Below, piece after piece: positions 1 to 41,418 of a DNA stretch of 41,494 nt; within the stretch, counting starts at the first letter, position 1; each line of letters starts with the position of its first letter. Source of the stretch: a virus. The translations under genes were made by a program, and so were the position numbers. The stretch spans positions 1-41,494 of IMG/VR virus record IMGVR_UViG_3300048586_000170. One strand, written 5' to 3'. The notes under the pieces were generated by a model that searched no databases, was not told the origin of the DNA, and was given only the letters and a program-made list of their open reading frames with translations.

Positions 1-70
1 GGTGGTGGGCATTTGACCTTCACGGGTTAACGGGTCTCCACCCCGTAGCCGCTCAACTCAATCGACTGCA

Positions 71-130
71 ACCTAACAACTCGCTGTAGGCGAGACCGCT
101 TCGCGGCCCGCCTAAGCTCGGGTGTTAGAC
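71..130 (+). repeat. attC-like integron recombination site 1
   Basis: The 60-bp element starts with ACCTAAC (71-77, fits RYYYAAC) and ends with GTTAGAC (124-130, fits GTTRRRY). Between them is an imperfect palindrome around CCGCTTCGCGG with flanking arms TAGGCG and CGCCTA. This is the architecture of integron attC sites. The left 70 bp of the window hold no complete gene. An ATG on the minus strand at position 12, preceded by GAAGG, could start a further cassette gene that leaves the window, but 12 bases are too few to call. Confidence 0.7.
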
Positions 131-336
131 CGCAGTTCGCCGCCGAAGAAATCGTGCATATCGTCGGCATTGATAATTGCTTGACCGGTGTTCAGCCGGT
201 AGCAGCGCAGCTTGTGGCCCATGATGTCCATGACGCCCTCGTGTGTTGCCCACGGCGTGCCGTCATCATCCTCTGGCGGGCCATCGGCTTCGCGCCAATG
301 CACGCCATCAAGCATCTTTTCAATCGGTGTTTTCAT
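112..336 (-). CDS. small cassette protein, function unknown
   Basis: This encodes an acidic 74-residue protein with no signal peptide or membrane segment. I do not recognise the family. The ATG at 336 is preceded by GGAG at a good distance. The start overlaps the end of the upstream gene by 17 nt, so the two are probably translationally coupled. The last codons and the stop run into attC-like site 1. The gene therefore lies between attC-like sites 1 and 2 and is read opposite to their usual orientation. It sits at the far end of the leftward phage operon, where lambdoid phages keep accessory genes. Confidence 0.6.
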   Translation of the reverse strand: MKTPIEKMLDGVHWREADGPPEDDDGTPWATHEGVMDIMGHKLRCYRLNTGQAIINADDMHDFFGGELRSNTRA

Positions 337-523
337 TTCTGCTCCGCATGTGTGGCTGCCGATCCCAAATTACCTGCGCAGACTCGCGCTTCTCTGTCCC
401 GCCTTTGTCCAGATAGACCGCAACACGCTCTACACCCGCGTTCCCGGCCCCATCGTCGAATCGGTGCATTTCGTAGCGCACGAACTTGTTTGGCGGCCTG
501 TGGTAAATCGGTACGTAGGGCAT
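320..523 (-). CDS. small basic cassette protein, function unknown
   Basis: This encodes a 67-residue soluble, basic protein beginning MPYVPIYHRP. No family is recognised. A GAGAAG sequence lies 4-9 nt before the ATG. It is the first of two overlapping genes in the segment between attC-like sites 2 and 1, and its translation start lies only about 17 bp from the end of site 2. Any promoter of its own would have to be inside that site; more likely it is read from the phage leftward promoter. Confidence 0.55.
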   Translation of the reverse strand: MPYVPIYHRPPNKFVRYEMHRFDDGAGNAGVERVAVYLDKGGTEKRESAQVIWDRQPHMRSRNENTD

Positions 524-539
524 GGCTTCTCGCTTTGCG

Positions 540-600
540 GTCTAACAAGGCATTCAAGGCCGACACCGCTTCGCGGCGCGGCTTATGTCAGCCGTTAGGA
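540..600 (+). repeat. attC-like integron recombination site 2
   Basis: This 61-bp element starts GTCTAAC (540-546, a perfect RYYYAAC) and ends GTTAGGA (594-600, one mismatch to GTTRRRY). Inside is a stem built on GCCGACACCGC TTCG GCGGCGCGGC with an unpaired extra G on one arm, the kind of asymmetry attC sites use for strand choice. The left half resembles, as far as I remember it, the attC of the aadA1 cassette. On the minus strand the right core supplies the TAA stop of the neighbouring 55-residue gene. Confidence 0.8.
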
Positions 601-762
601 GGCGCGAGTCCACGCCATCAAGCGGCTTGTGATTGGGGCAATGCAGTCGCCCATTGCCTCCGCCAGCATGGACAAAATCGCCAGCGGGAACAGCGCCGCG
701 AAAACCGGCAGCACCAGCCACCACCGCCAGTTCAAGATTGTTCGTTGCCGTCGGATGTTCAT
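595..762 (-). CDS. small inner-membrane cassette protein
   Basis: This encodes a 55-residue protein with a basic, Trp-rich N-terminus (MNIRRQRTILNWRWW) followed by one hydrophobic stretch at about residues 15-35. It is probably a single-pass membrane protein with the N-terminus inside. The start at 762 has a perfect AGGAGG at 770-775 on the minus strand. That ribosome site abuts the left core of attC-like site 3 (GTTAGGAGG), and the TAA stop lies in the right core of site 2. The gene therefore fills one cassette from core to core. Function unknown. Confidence 0.6.
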   Translation of the reverse strand: MNIRRQRTILNWRWWLVLPVFAALFPLAILSMLAEAMGDCIAPITSRLMAWTRAS

Positions 763-773
763 GGCTCGCCGCC

Positions 774-864
774 TCCTAACAATTCGTTCAACGCGACACC
801 GCTTCGCGGCGTCGCTGCATTTCGTGTCCGCACGTTGCGGTGCGCGTTAACTCAGCCGTTAGGC
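774..864 (+). repeat. attC-like integron recombination site 3 (long form)
   Basis: This 91-bp element runs from TCCTAAC (774-780) to GTTAGGC (858-864, perfect GTTRRRY). It keeps the classical left arm AACAATTCGTTCAACGCG and right arm CGCGTTAACTCAGCCGTT. The longer central part holds two hairpins: GCGACACCGC TTCG GCGGCGTCGC and CCGCAC GTT GCGG. Variable central length with conserved ends is normal for attC sites. It separates the 55-residue membrane protein gene from the zinc-ribbon gene. Confidence 0.8.
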
Positions 865-1085
865 ATCGGCTTGGCGCGCGCTCGCAACGTGCCGGACTTG
901 GTGGTTTGGTGCGCCAAGCATCTGTCGCTACAAAAAACCACGGATCGCCCACGCCGCATGTCCACCACGCCCTTCCAACCAACGTCTTGCGCCCATCCTG
1001 CAATCACAAAAGCAAACATTGGCGGCCCGGCAACTTCGATTCGCCTTTCCGCTTGGCAGCTCCAACAAACTAGCGTCACTTCCAT
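852..1085 (-). CDS. small zinc-ribbon cassette protein
   Basis: This encodes 77 residues with CWSC near the N-terminus (C7, C10) and CSDRC near residue 52, a CxxC-CxxxC pattern that suggests a single bound zinc ion. The middle is hydrophobic but too short and broken for a clear membrane span. The ATG at 1085 is preceded by GAGGAA. The last four codons (MPNG) are made from the right core of attC-like site 3, with TGA immediately after. The gene lies between site 3 and the half site at 1102. Zinc-ribbon proteins of this size are common in phage early regions. The actual role is unknown. Confidence 0.6.
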   Translation of the reverse strand: MEVTLVCWSCQAERRIEVAGPPMFAFVIAGWAQDVGWKGVVDMRRGRSVVFCSDRCLAHQTTKSGTLRARAKPMPNG

Positions 1086-1101
1086 AATTCCTCGGCCCGA
1101 T

Positions 1102-1130
1102 GCATAACAGTTCGTTCAAGCCGAGACCGC
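1102..1130 (+). repeat. left half of an attC-like site (truncated)
   Basis: GCATAACAGTTCGTTCAAGC followed by CGAGACCGC matches the left half of attC-like site 3 over its core and left arm. The right half (a CGGCTTAACTC-like arm and GTTRRRY) is absent. Instead the sequence continues as the 3' end of a minus-strand phage gene that stops at 1116. The half site marks the right border of the cassette-like region. Confidence 0.6.
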
Positions 1131-1763: not shown

Positions 1764-3434
1764 CTAAGCGGCGGCCTGCAATGCCTGGCGCAACCATGAC
1801 GGCGCGCGGTCCAGGTTGACGGCGGCCGGCTCGTCCGGCTCCTCGGTCCGCTCCGCGAACTCGTGCGCCACAACGGCTGGGTACTTGTCGGTCTCATCCA
1901 CTGTGATGCGGGCGGGCGTGGGCAATGCCCATGCGAGCGGCAAGGCTTCCTCGACCGTTCGCGGCACGCCCGCTGCGCCCCCGCGCGCCATCCACCAGCG
2001 CAGCGCCTTCGCGTGCGCCATGCCGGAATGCTCCAGGCACACCCACTCGCTGAACCGGCGCAGGCCGCACTGGTACGTCACGCGCAGCGATGGGATCTTG
2101 CCGGGCTTGGCGTGGCGTTCGTACTTCACGGACTGCACTGTATGCGTCGCCACGATCCGATCGCGGTCCGTCGACAAGACGGGCGCATCGATGGGGCGGT
2201 CCAGGTGCGCCGGGTCGCTGCCGCCGAAGTTGTGGCCGCATTCCGGGCAAGTGCGCACGCCGAACGCCAGCAACGCGCCGCAGGGGCACTCCTTCGCGCG
2301 GGCGGTCATCACGCCGGCCGCCTTGCCCGGGCGCGCGGTGCGCACGCGGATGGCGTCGACGGGGCCGTGTTCCAGCACGTTGCCGGCATAGTCCAGCACG
2401 AGACAGTCTTTCTTGCCCGGCGCGAGCCGGAACCCACGGCCGACCTGTTGGTAGTACAGGCCCGGGCTTTTCGTGGGGCGAAGCATCGCGACGCAGTCGA
2501 TCCCGGGCGCGTCGAACCCTTCCGACAGCACGTTGACGTTCACCATCGCGCGCAGGTGCCCGGCCTGGAACTCGGCCAGCAGTGCCGCGCGCTCGCCCTT
2601 CGGCGTACCGCCATGCACCAAGCCGGCCGCGATGCCGCGCGCCGCCAGCGCCGCGCGCACGTGCTCGGCATGGGCCACGTTGACGCAGAACACAATCCAC
2701 GCCTTGCGGTCGGCGGCGCGGTTGCATAGGTCGTCGCAGGTGCGTTCGATCAGGCCGGCGTCATCCATCGCCGCGGCCAATTGCGCTTCGTCATACTCGC
2801 CCCGCTTGATCGCCACGCGCGACAGGTCCGGCCGCTCGCCGGCGCGCGACACGAGGCGGGACAGGAACCCGGCCGCGATCAGGTCGGGGATGCGCGCCTC
2901 GTAGGCCACCTCGGTCAGGACGCGGCCGGGGCCGCAGACCGGCACGGCCTGGCCTTTCAGCCGGTACGGCGTCGCGGTCAGGCCGACCACGCGCAGGTTC
3001 GGATTCAGCGCGCGGCAGTCGGCGATGAATTGCAGGTAGCGGCCCTCGCCGTCCAGCGGAATGCGGTGCGCCTCGTCGATCAGCAGCAGATCGAACGGCC
3101 CGAACACCGACGCGCGGTTGTAGACCGATTGGATCTGCAGGAACAGCACGGGGTCGAAGCGGTCGCGCCGGTTCAAGCCGGCCGAGTAGATGCCCATCGG
3201 AAGCGTGGGCGCGTACTGCGCCAGCTTCGCGGCGTTCTGCGCGACCAGTTCCTGTACATGCGCGATGACCCCGACGCGGCCACCCCAAGCGGTCACGGCC
3301 TCGCTCGCAATCGCCGCCATCAGCGGCGACTTGCCGGCACCGGTCGGCAGCACCAGGGCGGGGTTGCCGTCCTTCGTGCGCAGGTACGCCCACAGGGTGT
3401 CGAGGGCCAGTTGCTGGTAGGGGCGGAGTTGCAT
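1764..3434 (-). CDS. phage DEAH-box (SF2) helicase
   Basis: This 556-residue superfamily 2 ATPase probably unwinds or remodels DNA during phage replication or recombination. Motifs visible are Q-like RPYQ (4-7), Walker A LPTGAGKS (29-36), DEAH (120-123), TATP (153-156) and motif VI QQVGRGFR in the second RecA-like domain. A short zinc finger (CPCG then CPECG, about residues 388-406) follows the helicase core. The C-terminal 120 residues are less conserved and end in basic and aromatic residues. The start codon overlaps the stop of the HTH gene (TAATG), so the two are coupled. A restriction-type translocase is an alternative reading, but the lone gene and its phage context favour a replication helicase. 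Confidence 0.88.
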   Translation of the reverse strand: MQLRPYQQLALDTLWAYLRTKDGNPALVLPTGAGKSPLMAAIASEAVTAWGGRVGVIAHVQELVAQNAAKLAQYAPTLPMGIYSAGLNRRDRFDPVLFLQIQSVYNRASVFGPFDLLLIDEAHRIPLDGEGRYLQFIADCRALNPNLRVVGLTATPYRLKGQAVPVCGPGRVLTEVAYEARIPDLIAAGFLSRLVSRAGERPDLSRVAIKRGEYDEAQLAAAMDDAGLIERTCDDLCNRAADRKAWIVFCVNVAHAEHVRAALAARGIAAGLVHGGTPKGERAALLAEFQAGHLRAMVNVNVLSEGFDAPGIDCVAMLRPTKSPGLYYQQVGRGFRLAPGKKDCLVLDYAGNVLEHGPVDAIRVRTARPGKAAGVMTARAKECPCGALLAFGVRTCPECGHNFGGSDPAHLDRPIDAPVLSTDRDRIVATHTVQSVKYERHAKPGKIPSLRVTYQCGLRRFSEWVCLEHSGMAHAKALRWWMARGGAAGVPRTVEEALPLAWALPTPARITVDETDKYPAVVAHEFAERTEEPDEPAAVNLDRAPSWLRQALQAAA

Positions 3435-4734: not shown

Positions 4735-4986
4735 GGTCTCGGGTCTCGGATCGGAAAGGTTGCCGCGGATAACGCGCCGCGGCTCGCGTTGCACCGCCCG
4801 AGGGAGGGGGCGAGCGGTGCGCCTTGTTTGGATCGCCGCTTACGGCGGCAAGTCGGTCATGTCACGCGCCAGGAGTGCGCCCGGGGGCTAAACGCGCCAC
4901 AACTGCGGGTGTTGTTCGCTCAAGCCAAGACCGCCCGCTGCTCGGCTGCGCGCTTATCCCTTGCGGGCCGGGCGCGCTCCGGGGAA
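4735..4986. other. intergenic gap with a degenerate attC-like half site
   Basis: No convincing gene is seen in these 252 bp between the single-strand binding protein and the nuclease. Positions 4915-4934 (TTCGCTCAAGCCAAGACCGC) match the left arm of the half attC-like site at 1111-1130 at 18 of 20 positions. There is no RYYYAAC core and no matching right half. The rest is GC-rich with short runs such as CCCGGGGGC. It may be the scar of a lost cassette. Confidence 0.35.
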
Positions 4987-12781: not shown

Positions 12782-13290
12782 CCCGCGCCGTGACGGCGGC
12801 GGCCGTCCACGAGCCGCGCAGCCGCCCCAGCTTCCGCGAGCGCGTCCACATGCTGGCCGGCAAGTCGGCCTATCGCGAGCCGGCCCAGGGCAGTTCCGAA
12901 CAGCGCGCGATCCCGGCCGATCACATCGTCGCCGCGGCGCTGGCGTTCGGGCGGGTCAACCCGGGCGACGTGGGGCCGGACATCGCCTTCGACATGGCAA
13001 CGGGCCGCCCGGGGCACTACCGGCGCGTGTGCGAATGGCTGGGCCGGCAGCTGGCGACCGAGGCGCAGCACCGGGGCGGGCGCTTGACGGCCGTGCGGCG
13101 CGTGGGGCCGTTGACGGCGCACTACGCGGTGTGGGCGTACAACGCCACCGTGCGCGGCTGGCAGTGCCCGCCCGCGCCCGATGGCATCACGCCCGAGGAC
13201 CACGGCGAGGCGCTGCTGTTCGCCTGCCTGCTGCTGGAACGCGCGGCCGAGGATGCGCTGAGTTTGGCGGCGCGGCGGGCACGGGGTTGA
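12778..13290 (+). CDS. possible late regulator (antiterminator position)
   Basis: This 170-residue protein starts at a GTG overlapping the preceding TGA. It has basic segments (RSRPSFRERVH near the start; RLTAVRRVGPLTAHYAVWAYNATVRGW at about 101-127) and an acidic, helical end. I do not recognise the family. It ends at the -35 box of a strong promoter-like site followed by a terminator hairpin, the place of Q in lambda, so a role as late activator or antiterminator is a reasonable guess from position only. Confidence 0.55.
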   Translation: MTRAVTAAAVHEPRSRPSFRERVHMLAGKSAYREPAQGSSEQRAIPADHIVAAALAFGRVNPGDVGPDIAFDMATGRPGHYRRVCEWLGRQLATEAQHRGGRLTAVRRVGPLTAHYAVWAYNATVRGWQCPPAPDGITPEDHGEALLFACLLLERAAEDALSLAARRARG

Positions 13291-38492: not shown

Positions 38493-40256
38493 ATGGCGAT
38501 TCGATCATCCCTCCCGCGCCCACGTGGGCGGCCTTTCGTCGGCACCAGGACATCCCCGCCGCTGGGGGGTGGCGGCTATGACCCGGCCGAAGAACTGTTT
38601 GGTGCCGGCGAAGTCGGCGTTGCGATTGTCGCGTCGGACTTTTCTACGCTTTGGCAAGGGCCGGGGCGCACCAATCAAGTAACCGCGGTCGGGCAGACGG
38701 TAGCGGTTGCCGATGACATTTCAGGCAACGGGAAAAACGTCACGTTCACTGGCGTCACGCTTGGGCAAGACAACGCTGGACGGTATTACTTTGTGGCGAG
38801 CGGCACTGCAACAGCGACAACGGATAGCATCGACCTGACCGGCACCAATAAGGTTTCCGTTTTTTCGGGATTCTTTAACACAAGCGTCGGTGCTGCAACT
38901 ATCGCAAAGTTCGGCCTAATCGCCTCGCAAGCAGGCACGTTCGACTTTGGCATACAGTCAAGCGGCGCTTTGATTTATCGGCGCGGCTCCGGGTCATTCG
39001 GAGCGCGCGGGACTCCGGATATCGGCCAAACGGCAACGGTTGTTTCTGCGGTTGTTGACCTTTCGGGCGCAACTCAGGCCACGGAAAACCCAACACTTCG
39101 GGCGAACCTGTCGCAACCGTCGCTCGCAAACTACGGGTCGGCAGACTCGGGGTCTGGAAATTTCGGAACCTACGCGCTAACGCTATTCAGCGGGCAGGGT
39201 GCGTTCCGTGGCGGCCTGTACTATCTAATCGTGCGCGGTGCGACTTCCAGCGCAGACGAAATCGATGACGTTGAGGCATGGGGCGTGACGCTTACAGGCC
39301 CGGCGCTGACGTTTTCCGCAACGCCTACCAGCTTCACGGATACTGGCGCGGCAACAAACATGGGTACGCACTACGTTACCTCCAATTTCGCTACTGCCAA
39401 TTTCACGACGACCGCAAGCGAAATCGAAATCAGCGAATATTGCTCGATCTTCGGAACCTTCCCGGCTTATGCAGCCTGCGGGGTTTACGTGGATGGCGCG
39501 TATGTTGGGCAGTTGCCGGCAACATCAAACGGCGGCATTACCCGTGGCCGCGTACCGCTAGGATCGTCCGGCTCTAAGACAGTCACCATTGTCAATGGCA
39601 CGCAATCCAAGCCGTCCGGCACGCTGTTGGGTACCTGGGTTGTAACGGTCAAGGCTGACGCGGCGCTAACGCAGACATTCCCGTCCGCGACGAATCGCAT
39701 CCTGATTTATGGCGATTCCATCCCCTCGGGTTCCGATGCGCTTCCGCCGACTCAATCCGCGTGGCCGATGCTTCTTCGTGGGGCATACAGTCCGGACTCT
39801 GTTGCATTGGAGACATGGGGCTACCGGTCGTTGCACGATGATTGCGTGGACGCAACGGCCCGCGCCGCATTCGTGGATATTGTCGAAACGTATGCGCCTG
39901 AAATAATCTGGCTGGCGATTGGGACGAATGATTACGGCATCAACAAGTGGACTGCGGCAAACTTCGGCACGGCCTACGCCGCGTTGCTTGACGACCTGAA
40001 CGCCGCGCTGCCGGGTGTTCCGATCTACTGCCAAACTCCAATCCTCCGCACCAGCGAAGTTGCCAACGGGCTTGGGTCAACGCTTACCGATTACCGCAAT
40101 GCCATTGCTACGGCAGTAAGCACGCGCACAAGTTTTGCAACCCTCGTTGACGGGGCGGCGATCATGACAACCGCGTCACTGACGGACGGCATCCACCCAT
40201 CCACGGCGGGCCACGCCCTGTATGCGGCTTATGTCGAAGGCGTGCTAGGCATCTAA
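38493..40256 (+). CDS. tail protein with SGNH/GDSL hydrolase domain
   Basis: This encodes 587 residues. The N-terminal 40 residues are Pro/Gly/Arg-rich and may attach it to the tail. A LamG-like beta domain (about 70-250; NQVTAVGQTVAVADDISGNGKNV) and a small beta domain follow. From about 395 there is an SGNH hydrolase: block I YGDSIPSG, block III GTNDYG (near 483), block V DGIHPS (near 567), giving Ser, Gly, Asn and Asp/His. Such enzymes deacetylate surface polysaccharide, and on tail tips act as receptor-modifying esterases. The 3' end overlaps the convergent integrase gene by 4 bp. Confidence 0.82.
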   Translation: MAIRSSLPRPRGRPFVGTRTSPPLGGGGYDPAEELFGAGEVGVAIVASDFSTLWQGPGRTNQVTAVGQTVAVADDISGNGKNVTFTGVTLGQDNAGRYYFVASGTATATTDSIDLTGTNKVSVFSGFFNTSVGAATIAKFGLIASQAGTFDFGIQSSGALIYRRGSGSFGARGTPDIGQTATVVSAVVDLSGATQATENPTLRANLSQPSLANYGSADSGSGNFGTYALTLFSGQGAFRGGLYYLIVRGATSSADEIDDVEAWGVTLTGPALTFSATPTSFTDTGAATNMGTHYVTSNFATANFTTTASEIEISEYCSIFGTFPAYAACGVYVDGAYVGQLPATSNGGITRGRVPLGSSGSKTVTIVNGTQSKPSGTLLGTWVVTVKADAALTQTFPSATNRILIYGDSIPSGSDALPPTQSAWPMLLRGAYSPDSVALETWGYRSLHDDCVDATARAAFVDIVETYAPEIIWLAIGTNDYGINKWTAANFGTAYAALLDDLNAALPGVPIYCQTPILRTSEVANGLGSTLTDYRNAIATAVSTRTSFATLVDGAAIMTTASLTDGIHPSTAGHALYAAYVEGVLGI

Positions 40257-41212
40257 AGCCGGTCGGCTAGGTCGTCGGCGCTGGTGTTGTAGTACAGAAG
40301 CAAACTGCGCGGGTCGCGGTGTCCGATCACGCGGGCGAGTTCCAGCACGTCCAGCTTTCGTGACAGTCGCCAGATCGCCTCCGCTCTGGAATCGTGAAAG
40401 TGCAGGTCGGGTATCTGCGACGCCTTCACCGCCCGCCGAAACAACGCATCCCGCGTGCCGGGGTTCACGTCGAAACACGTGGCCCGGTCGCGGGGCAGGG
40501 CGGCCAGTATCTCGCGCGCCCGTGGCGATAGCGGCACGTCCCGCACATCGCCGTTTTTCGTGCGCGGCAGCGTGACGGCCTTAGCCCGCACGTCCGCCCA
40601 TGTCATGCCTAATATCTCGCCGGCCCGCATCGCGGTTTCTACGGCGAACAGGAACGCAAGCCCCGTCCGATTCTCCGACGTGGCGGCCTCGGTGTCTGTC
40701 ACCCCAAGCGCCAGCGTTACCCGGTCAATTTCATCCTGCGATACCCGCCGCTTCCGACTCGGGGGCGAACGCGGCACGCGCACCTCGGCCATCGGCCTAT
40801 CCCGCAGCCAGCCCCAATCCTTCCGGGCGGTTTCCAGCACTGTGCGGATCAGGGCCATTTCCCGCGCGACCGTGGCCGGCGCAACCTCCTGAAGCCTCGC
40901 ATCACGCCATGCCGCTATATCCGGCCCTGTAAGCCGCGCTAATGGCTTCCGTGCCAGCGCGTCCCGCTGCAGCGATTGCAGCCGGATCGCCTCCCAGCGG
41001 CCACCACGGCGGCCTGGTGACGTATCTGCGGCGAAGCGTGCCATCGCGTCCCCAACCGTCTTATCGGGTAGCCTAGCCCCGGACAGTTCGGCTTCCCGCT
41101 GCACCGCCCATGCGGCGGCCTGCTGTTTCGTGGGGAAGGTTGCGGACTCACGGGAGCCGGCGACATACAACTGCACGCGCCAGCCTTTCCCGTGCCGGTA
41201 GATGCTCGCCAT
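40253..41212 (-). CDS. int: tyrosine-type phage integrase
   Basis: This encodes 319 residues. A short N-terminal AT-hook/arm-binding type domain (MASIYRHGKGWRVQLYVAGS) is followed by a core-binding domain and the catalytic domain: Arg in AMRAGEILGM, Lys in PRTKNGD, HDSR, GHRD and the nucleophile Tyr in LLYYNTS near the C-terminus. It joins attP and attB and, with an excisionase not seen here, reverses this. I start at ATG 41212 because homologous integrases begin MASIYRxGKGW; an ATG 26 codons upstream lies in the repeat region. It is read leftward from the att end. Confidence 0.9.
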   Translation of the reverse strand: MASIYRHGKGWRVQLYVAGSRESATFPTKQQAAAWAVQREAELSGARLPDKTVGDAMARFAADTSPGRRGGRWEAIRLQSLQRDALARKPLARLTGPDIAAWRDARLQEVAPATVAREMALIRTVLETARKDWGWLRDRPMAEVRVPRSPPSRKRRVSQDEIDRVTLALGVTDTEAATSENRTGLAFLFAVETAMRAGEILGMTWADVRAKAVTLPRTKNGDVRDVPLSPRAREILAALPRDRATCFDVNPGTRDALFRRAVKASQIPDLHFHDSRAEAIWRLSRKLDVLELARVIGHRDPRSLLLYYNTSADDLADRL

Positions 41213-41254
41213 ACCCGCCCCCGTGGGTAATCCGTGGGGAGCGAGCATAGAACA

Positions 41255-41272
41255 ACCGGACATCGCCGGACA
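41255..41272. repeat. integrase arm-type site, copy 1
   Basis: ACCGGACATCGCCGGACA consists of two CCGGACA units 9 bp apart. An 18-bp copy with one difference lies at 41328. The place between int and the proposed att core suggests arm-type binding sites for integrase. Confidence 0.6.
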
Positions 41273-41327
41273 CAATCGGAAACAGGCCATCCGTTGAAAC
41301 CCGCGCCATACGGTCGTTTCATGAAAA

Positions 41328-41345
41328 ACCGGACATGGCCGGACA
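41328..41345. repeat. integrase arm-type site, copy 2
   Basis: ACCGGACATGGCCGGACA is the second 18-bp copy, 73 bp from the first, in the same orientation. It is followed by a partial third unit (GGGCCGGAA). Confidence 0.6.
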
Positions 41346-41367
41346 GGGCCGGAACCGAACCTAGACC

Positions 41368-41383
41368 CCTATTTCCGGCACCA
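41368..41383 (+). other. proposed attR core, tRNA 3'-end-like
   Basis: CCTATTTCCGGCACCA has the form of the last bases of a tRNA: seven acceptor-stem bases TTCCGGC, discriminator A and CCA. No tRNA body precedes it; the sequence to its left is phage arm region. It is followed 12 bp later by a terminator. This is what is left on the far side when a phage integrates into a tRNA gene. The T-loop is not recognisable, so the assignment is tentative. Confidence 0.42.
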
Positions 41384-41395
41384 GTTGCAACGGAC

Positions 41396-41418
41396 AAGCC
41401 CGCCTCGGCGGGCTTTTT
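41396..41418 (+). terminator. terminator beyond the att core
   Basis: AAGCCCGC, loop CTCG and GCGGGCTT form an eight-pair stem followed by TTT. If the att reading is right, this was the terminator of the interrupted host tRNA transcript. Confidence 0.7.

Follow-up and report, generated by a model that had tools for sequence, protein, structure and literature searches.

An attC cassette array at the end of a phage early operon: a probable integron platform without an integrase of its own

Main

The small genes at the left end of the window, by which we mean the entire 41,494-base virus record analysed here (G000), probably form an integrase-less integron platform, composed of attI and inverted cassettes, that resides in a phage early operon and is probably recombined by a host integron integrase (IntI) in trans. 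This reading rests on observations of attC identity, position inside phages, variable and shared cassette content, inverted gene polarity, attI-like heads in relatives and the absence of IntI.

Integron attC sites in the window

We searched the window with a covariance model, R1, trained without any window sequence on 15 attC sites that adjoin integron integrases, drawn from class 1 integrons and from the chromosomal integrons of gammaproteobacteria. Three complete sites were called, all with the attC top strand on the plus strand: site 1 at 71–130 (62.2 bits, E = 9e-15), site 2 at 540–600 (49.7 bits, E = 2.5e-11) and site 3, of the long type and 91 nt in length, at 774–864 (61.5 bits, E = 1.4e-14). 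Nothing else across the 41 kb rose above 15 bits with R1: the opposite strand of site 1 came next at 14.7 bits, and the best unrelated place reached 10 bits. At 1102–1130 (plus strand), where the array meets the phage early operon, the sequence and a repeat search reveal a half attC containing only R'', L'' and the centre; it was not called by R1 and is a truncated attC on sequence alone. A preliminary description of this DNA had placed three complete sites and a half site at exactly these positions and had proposed a covariance-model check of the region; that check has now been run, and all complete sites were accepted at 49.7–62.2 bits. Bases 1–70 (plus strand) are the end of an upstream cassette body that extends left beyond the record, and the array continues off that end.

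The features that define attC membership — R'' and R' boxes, L'' and L' arms, a one-sided extrahelical base and an imperfect hairpin — are present in the window sites according to R1 and DNA folding. The R''-to-centre motif has two mismatch-free occurrences where 0.01 are expected, and the site at 540–599 is ~82% identical to the attC of the aadB cassette of class 1 integrons (72 nt). Across 47 phage attC sites, hairpin pairing holds in 94.3% of cells, and 106 double changes were counted, compared with 29 after shuffling, in an alignment that was itself fitted to structure. R1 also detects the attC cluster of phage TJE1; Rfam returned no attC family match in the window. Chance palindromes were ruled out by the model scores and shuffles.

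The window satisfies the criterion for a CALIN (two or more attC with no intI close by), having three attC and no TIGR02249 match in the record, in agreement with the preliminary description, which stated that the window has no integron integrase; the intI criterion for a complete integron is not met. No protein above the IntI cut-off was found in the records of the window, L182, L186, L187, L188, L189, L219 or L220. As far as sequence evidence can confirm it, the window repeats are genuine integron attC; recombination with attI by an integron integrase has not been shown for them.

Cassette genes continue the early operon against attC polarity

The leftward early operon, on the minus strand, runs in the order SSB, Cas4-type phage exonuclease (3658–4794), RadD-like phage DNA helicase (phrog_16; 1764–3434), a protein with a DUF551 domain (1366–1797) and an 85-aa protein, followed by the cassette genes. 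The 85-aa gene (1116–1373), the last before the array, has its stop codon within the half attC. Beyond it, still on the minus strand, lie a 77-aa gene at 852–1085, with cysteine pairs as in small zinc proteins, its stop codon within attC3 and no database match; a 55-aa gene at 595–762, with a hydrophobic stretch, a stop codon within attC2 and a GGAGG-type ribosome site that joins the R'' box of attC3; a 67-aa gene at 320–523, without a family match, which overlaps the next gene and has its stop in the overlap; and a 74-aa gene at 112–336, which ends within attC1 and weakly matches phage family phrog_2384. All five of these minus-strand genes start with ATG, and four of the five stop in an attC or the half site. 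The small cassette proteins have almost no matches in Pfam, PHROGs, tblastn or viral contigs. A 317-aa open frame on the plus strand (154–1107), antisense to the whole array and without a family match, is probably spurious. Farther up the operon, between the exonuclease and SSB genes, Rfam identifies a Proteo-phage-1 RNA (4901–4982, minus strand, 42.9 bits).

Most array genes have a ribosome site or a stop codon in or next to a hairpin and, together with the conserved pairing, this would also suit phage RNA or DNA elements that merely resemble attC, such as mRNA hairpins between operon genes that act as processing or stability signals. We find that explanation very hard to credit: the match to attC covers both sequence and structure, including the R boxes, the spacers and the one-sided extrahelical base, an attI-like site heads the array of phage L188 (below), and close relatives lack the hairpins.

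Since attC is asymmetric, the covariance model reveals its top strand. Among 59 decided intervals of chromosomal integrons, the gene flanked by two attC followed this strand in 55 and opposed it in 4; viral arrays that lack IntI had 11 following and 36 opposing (Fisher p = 4e-14), and 15 of 18 such viral arrays are mostly inverted. The 11/36 count takes in every viral array lacking IntI, including L168 and L169, two isolate records that have no IntI in the record and show normal polarity. Leaving them out gives 5/36, an exclusion considered only after those two had been seen. The window itself has no decided interval in the same sense and two in the opposite sense (genes on the minus strand, attC on the plus), so that the canonical cassette sense is not met; L219 adds two further decided intervals, both inverted, and the published array of phage TJE1 has normal polarity. 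The preliminary description was right to read an attC array within an operon, but it overlooked that the genes run against the polarity of attC. Inverted polarity is a simple signature by which, whatever the metagenome, phage-borne arrays can be distinguished from chromosomal arrays that were captured.

The array lies inside the phage

The right end of the record holds a phage tyrosine integrase of phrog_1, not an integron integrase (40253–41290, minus strand), whose 5' end faces the attR core. This core consists of 17 nt of a tRNA gene 3' end (CCTATTTCCGGCACCAG; 41368–41384, plus strand), identical to the end of tRNA-Thr(CGT) in L216, and a host terminator follows downstream at 41396–41418. 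The core is shared with the very ends of two related contigs, L003 and L004, both of which stop exactly at it. In these contigs the integrase–attP module, compared with window positions 40253–41384, is inverted within the same interval between the early and late ends. The left end of the record has no copy of the 17-nt core, and the record contains no attL; the array is accordingly placed inside the prophage, with the early operon on one side of it and attL on the other.

Other phages give concordant layouts. The array stands between helicase and tail genes in L186; the order in L188 is integrase, attI, array and helicase; in the circular genome G193, which closes on itself by a 127-mer, the array lies between tail and early genes; and the array of L220 is likewise flanked by phage genes. 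The preliminary description had taken the array to be phage-resident, and the missing left-hand core, together with homologous arrays between phage genes in L186, L188 and circular G193, bears this out. These layouts place the array inside the phage and not in host DNA beyond the phage boundary. A chromosomal integron of the host, lying beside the prophage or fused to it, might have been suspected, since similar attC occur in gammaproteobacterial chromosomal integrons and prophages inserted in such integrons are described (PMC9892861). That reading is already largely refuted, and we now think it most improbable: the attL core that should separate array from phage is missing, arrays sit between phage genes in the four genomes above, and the cassette genes prolong the phage operon, with a polarity contrary to that of chromosomal cassettes. 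Genomes with a window-like helicase yielded distant relatives only, and no host can be assigned from them.

Related phages carry different cassettes

Scanning IMG/VR with an attC pattern yielded 24 stretches. Among them L186 is a relative of the window, with a helicase 67.5% and an exonuclease 53% identical. Past its helicase gene lie a half attC, at the place equivalent to the window half site, then full attC sites and small genes, three of each, and a DNA methyltransferase gene, beyond which come further phage genes and then tail genes in reverse; its cassette genes differ from those of the window. A second pair, G194 and G191, shares a backbone 96.4% identical over 10.8 kb and carries nine versus two attC, and the two also differ elsewhere. 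The preliminary description had predicted that content would vary at the same place, and it does: L186 carries other cassettes, another relative none, and G194 and G191 nine and two attC. No attC was found in any of 80 helicase relatives from a protein search, several of whose contigs stop before the interval.

Arrays also occur in different phages, among them L182 and L187 (terminase and portal), L189 and L196 (terminase and portal; a record that closes on itself via a 127-mer) and L188, a distinct phage with an integrase, an array and a helicase-methyltransferase. DNA methyltransferase genes lie in or beside phage arrays (L186, 5568–6398; L189, 23–1015), and such genes are reported for phage CALINs too in PMC9892861. 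One array phage (L173, 1400–2542; L194, 7935–9077) has a reverse transcriptase of phrog_1423 near the array, along with a phrog_95 integrase.

Cassette bodies are shared among unrelated phages

Three comparisons locate junctions between shared and unshared DNA. The window and L187 are identical over bases 1–127, comprising the cassette end (1–70) and attC1; they diverge at base 128, inside the R' box, and past the cut G124|T125 their content is unrelated. A length of 127 is a common assembly k-mer length, so the real extent of this identity is undetermined. Both contigs probably depart from a single assembly node, with shared DNA extending further left. In L182, the window's cassette body (78 of 79 nt, or 98.7%, including the R'' box) is joined to a different attC hairpin. 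Compensatory changes distinguish the L182 hairpin (1445–1504) from that of the window (71–130), which looks as though hairpins had been exchanged separately from bodies. L175 and L188 have only attC and one cassette body in common, identical at 320 of 322 nt, again with differing hairpins. The last 127 bases of contig L175, which ends at 12808, are found exactly in L188, placing the contig end inside the shared cassette. The L188 cassette gene shared with L175 had no good match in 274 gammaproteobacterial genomes.

Shared bodies among otherwise unrelated phages imply that cassettes pass from phage to phage, the borders lying at the outer attC boxes. The swappable accessory genes envisaged in the preliminary description are supported to this extent; transfer to bacterial hosts remains unshown. 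One junction lies on the R' side (window/L187), as bottom-strand cleavage by IntI would predict, and two lie on the R'' side (window/L182 and L175/L188). As IntI cleaves the bottom strand at R', a junction on the R'' side needs either use of the top strand or homologous recombination; top-strand recombination is less efficient but has been observed (PMC9892861). Normal IntI recombination does not produce half sites like those of the window and L186.

These junctions bear on whether the attC cluster is inert, that is, a CALIN whose sites are old repeats through which homologous recombination, by RecA or phage recombinases, spreads cassettes with no present role for IntI. We regard this as unlikely, though it retains real weight: IntI is absent from the record, two comparisons join the same body to different hairpins as if crossover had occurred on the R'' side, half sites exist in the window and L186, and phages are mosaic, G194 and G191 differing elsewhere too. 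Against it, homology peaks in the identical CCGCTTCGCGG centre, yet the junctions are located at the outer R boxes instead, compensatory change maintains the hairpins, and attI-like heads would be pointless without IntI.

attI-like sites head the arrays of related phages

Our preferred reading, a platform served by IntI in trans, includes an attI. At the start of the array along the attC top strand, the unrelated phages L186 and L188 have TTACRCCCCGGANGTGGGGTCTATNNNNNG|TTATGC in common. An attI-like core, GGGGTCTA-N6-GTTA, is found in L186, L188, L172 and L178, with a looser version in L179, and the motif also occurs ~145–305 bases from the start of IntI, the position of attI, in several chromosomal integrons. 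In 1.5 Mb of other loci the strict motif does not occur. Searching IMG/VR with the attI core alone recovered four new contigs, three of which have attC downstream in the right polarity. The motif was partly derived from the very phage sites described here. The window, which breaks off on the left within the array, contains no such motif, as expected if the site falls left of position 1. The preliminary description, correct that the cassette array is real, missed the attI-like heads of related phage arrays.

Discussion

In the arrangement we propose, the region would be the cis-acting half of an integron residing in a temperate phage: an array of small cassettes where the leftward early operon ends, whose attI-like start would lie on the integrase side, as in related phages, and in the window record left of position 1. 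Most likely, a host IntI acts in trans on folded attC hairpins and the phage attI, by which cassettes would be inserted, deleted and exchanged. Because attI points against the early operon, an early phage promoter would transcribe only cassettes whose gene is antiparallel to its own attC, and selection for expression would leave an array of inverted cassettes; entry at attI with retention of promoter-facing genes predicts inversion relative to attC, as found. That IntI acts in trans, that the early promoter drives expression and that selection favours one orientation are inferences, no recombination having been observed.

Whether a widespread class of temperate phages carries such platforms and uses the host integron integrase to trade accessory genes with other phages, and perhaps with the integrons of bacteria, is in our judgement an evenly balanced question. 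If so, phages would be a reservoir and vector of integron cassettes, whose origin and travel between bacteria are an old open question: by keeping attI and an array, exchanging cassettes and borrowing the host enzyme, they would serve as both vehicle and gene pool. The platform would in turn give the phage a modular accessory region.

Part of this is already known. The preliminary description knew of no described phage system of this kind, a view overtaken by Qi et al. 2023 (PMC9892861), which reports attC clusters (CALINs) without an integron integrase in Tetrasphaera phage TJE1, Polaribacter phage P12002L and Pseudoalteromonas phage PH101. In assays described there, five of six phage attC sites recombined with attI1 by IntI1, the TJE1 sites being active with IntI1. 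Phage-borne attC clusters, and the activity of IntI1 on them, are accordingly already in print. In the open-access literature, subscription journals being outside our scope, we found no report of inverted polarity, of attI-headed integrase-less arrays in early operons or of cassette exchange between unrelated phages.

The published phage CALINs resemble the window in having attC clusters inside phages without an integron integrase. TJE1 genes run along attC polarity, whereas those of the window run against it, in an array at the end of an early operon, and for TJE1, P12002L and PH101 the sections of PMC9892861 consulted report no attI head and show no exchange between phages. Shewanella prophage M16-3 has an integron and a CALIN, each with an attI, and is like the phage arrays in combining attI and attC cassettes within a prophage, but it is described as cryptic and has its own intact IntI (PMC9892861). 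Accessory regions of lambdoid early operons are also alike, with variable small genes at the operon end near int. We know of none among these regions with attC between the genes. Finally, class 1 and chromosomal integron arrays share with the phage arrays the attC family, an attI-like head and the cassette layout, whereas the phage arrays lack IntI, carry genes antiparallel to attC and are presumably transcribed from a phage early promoter.
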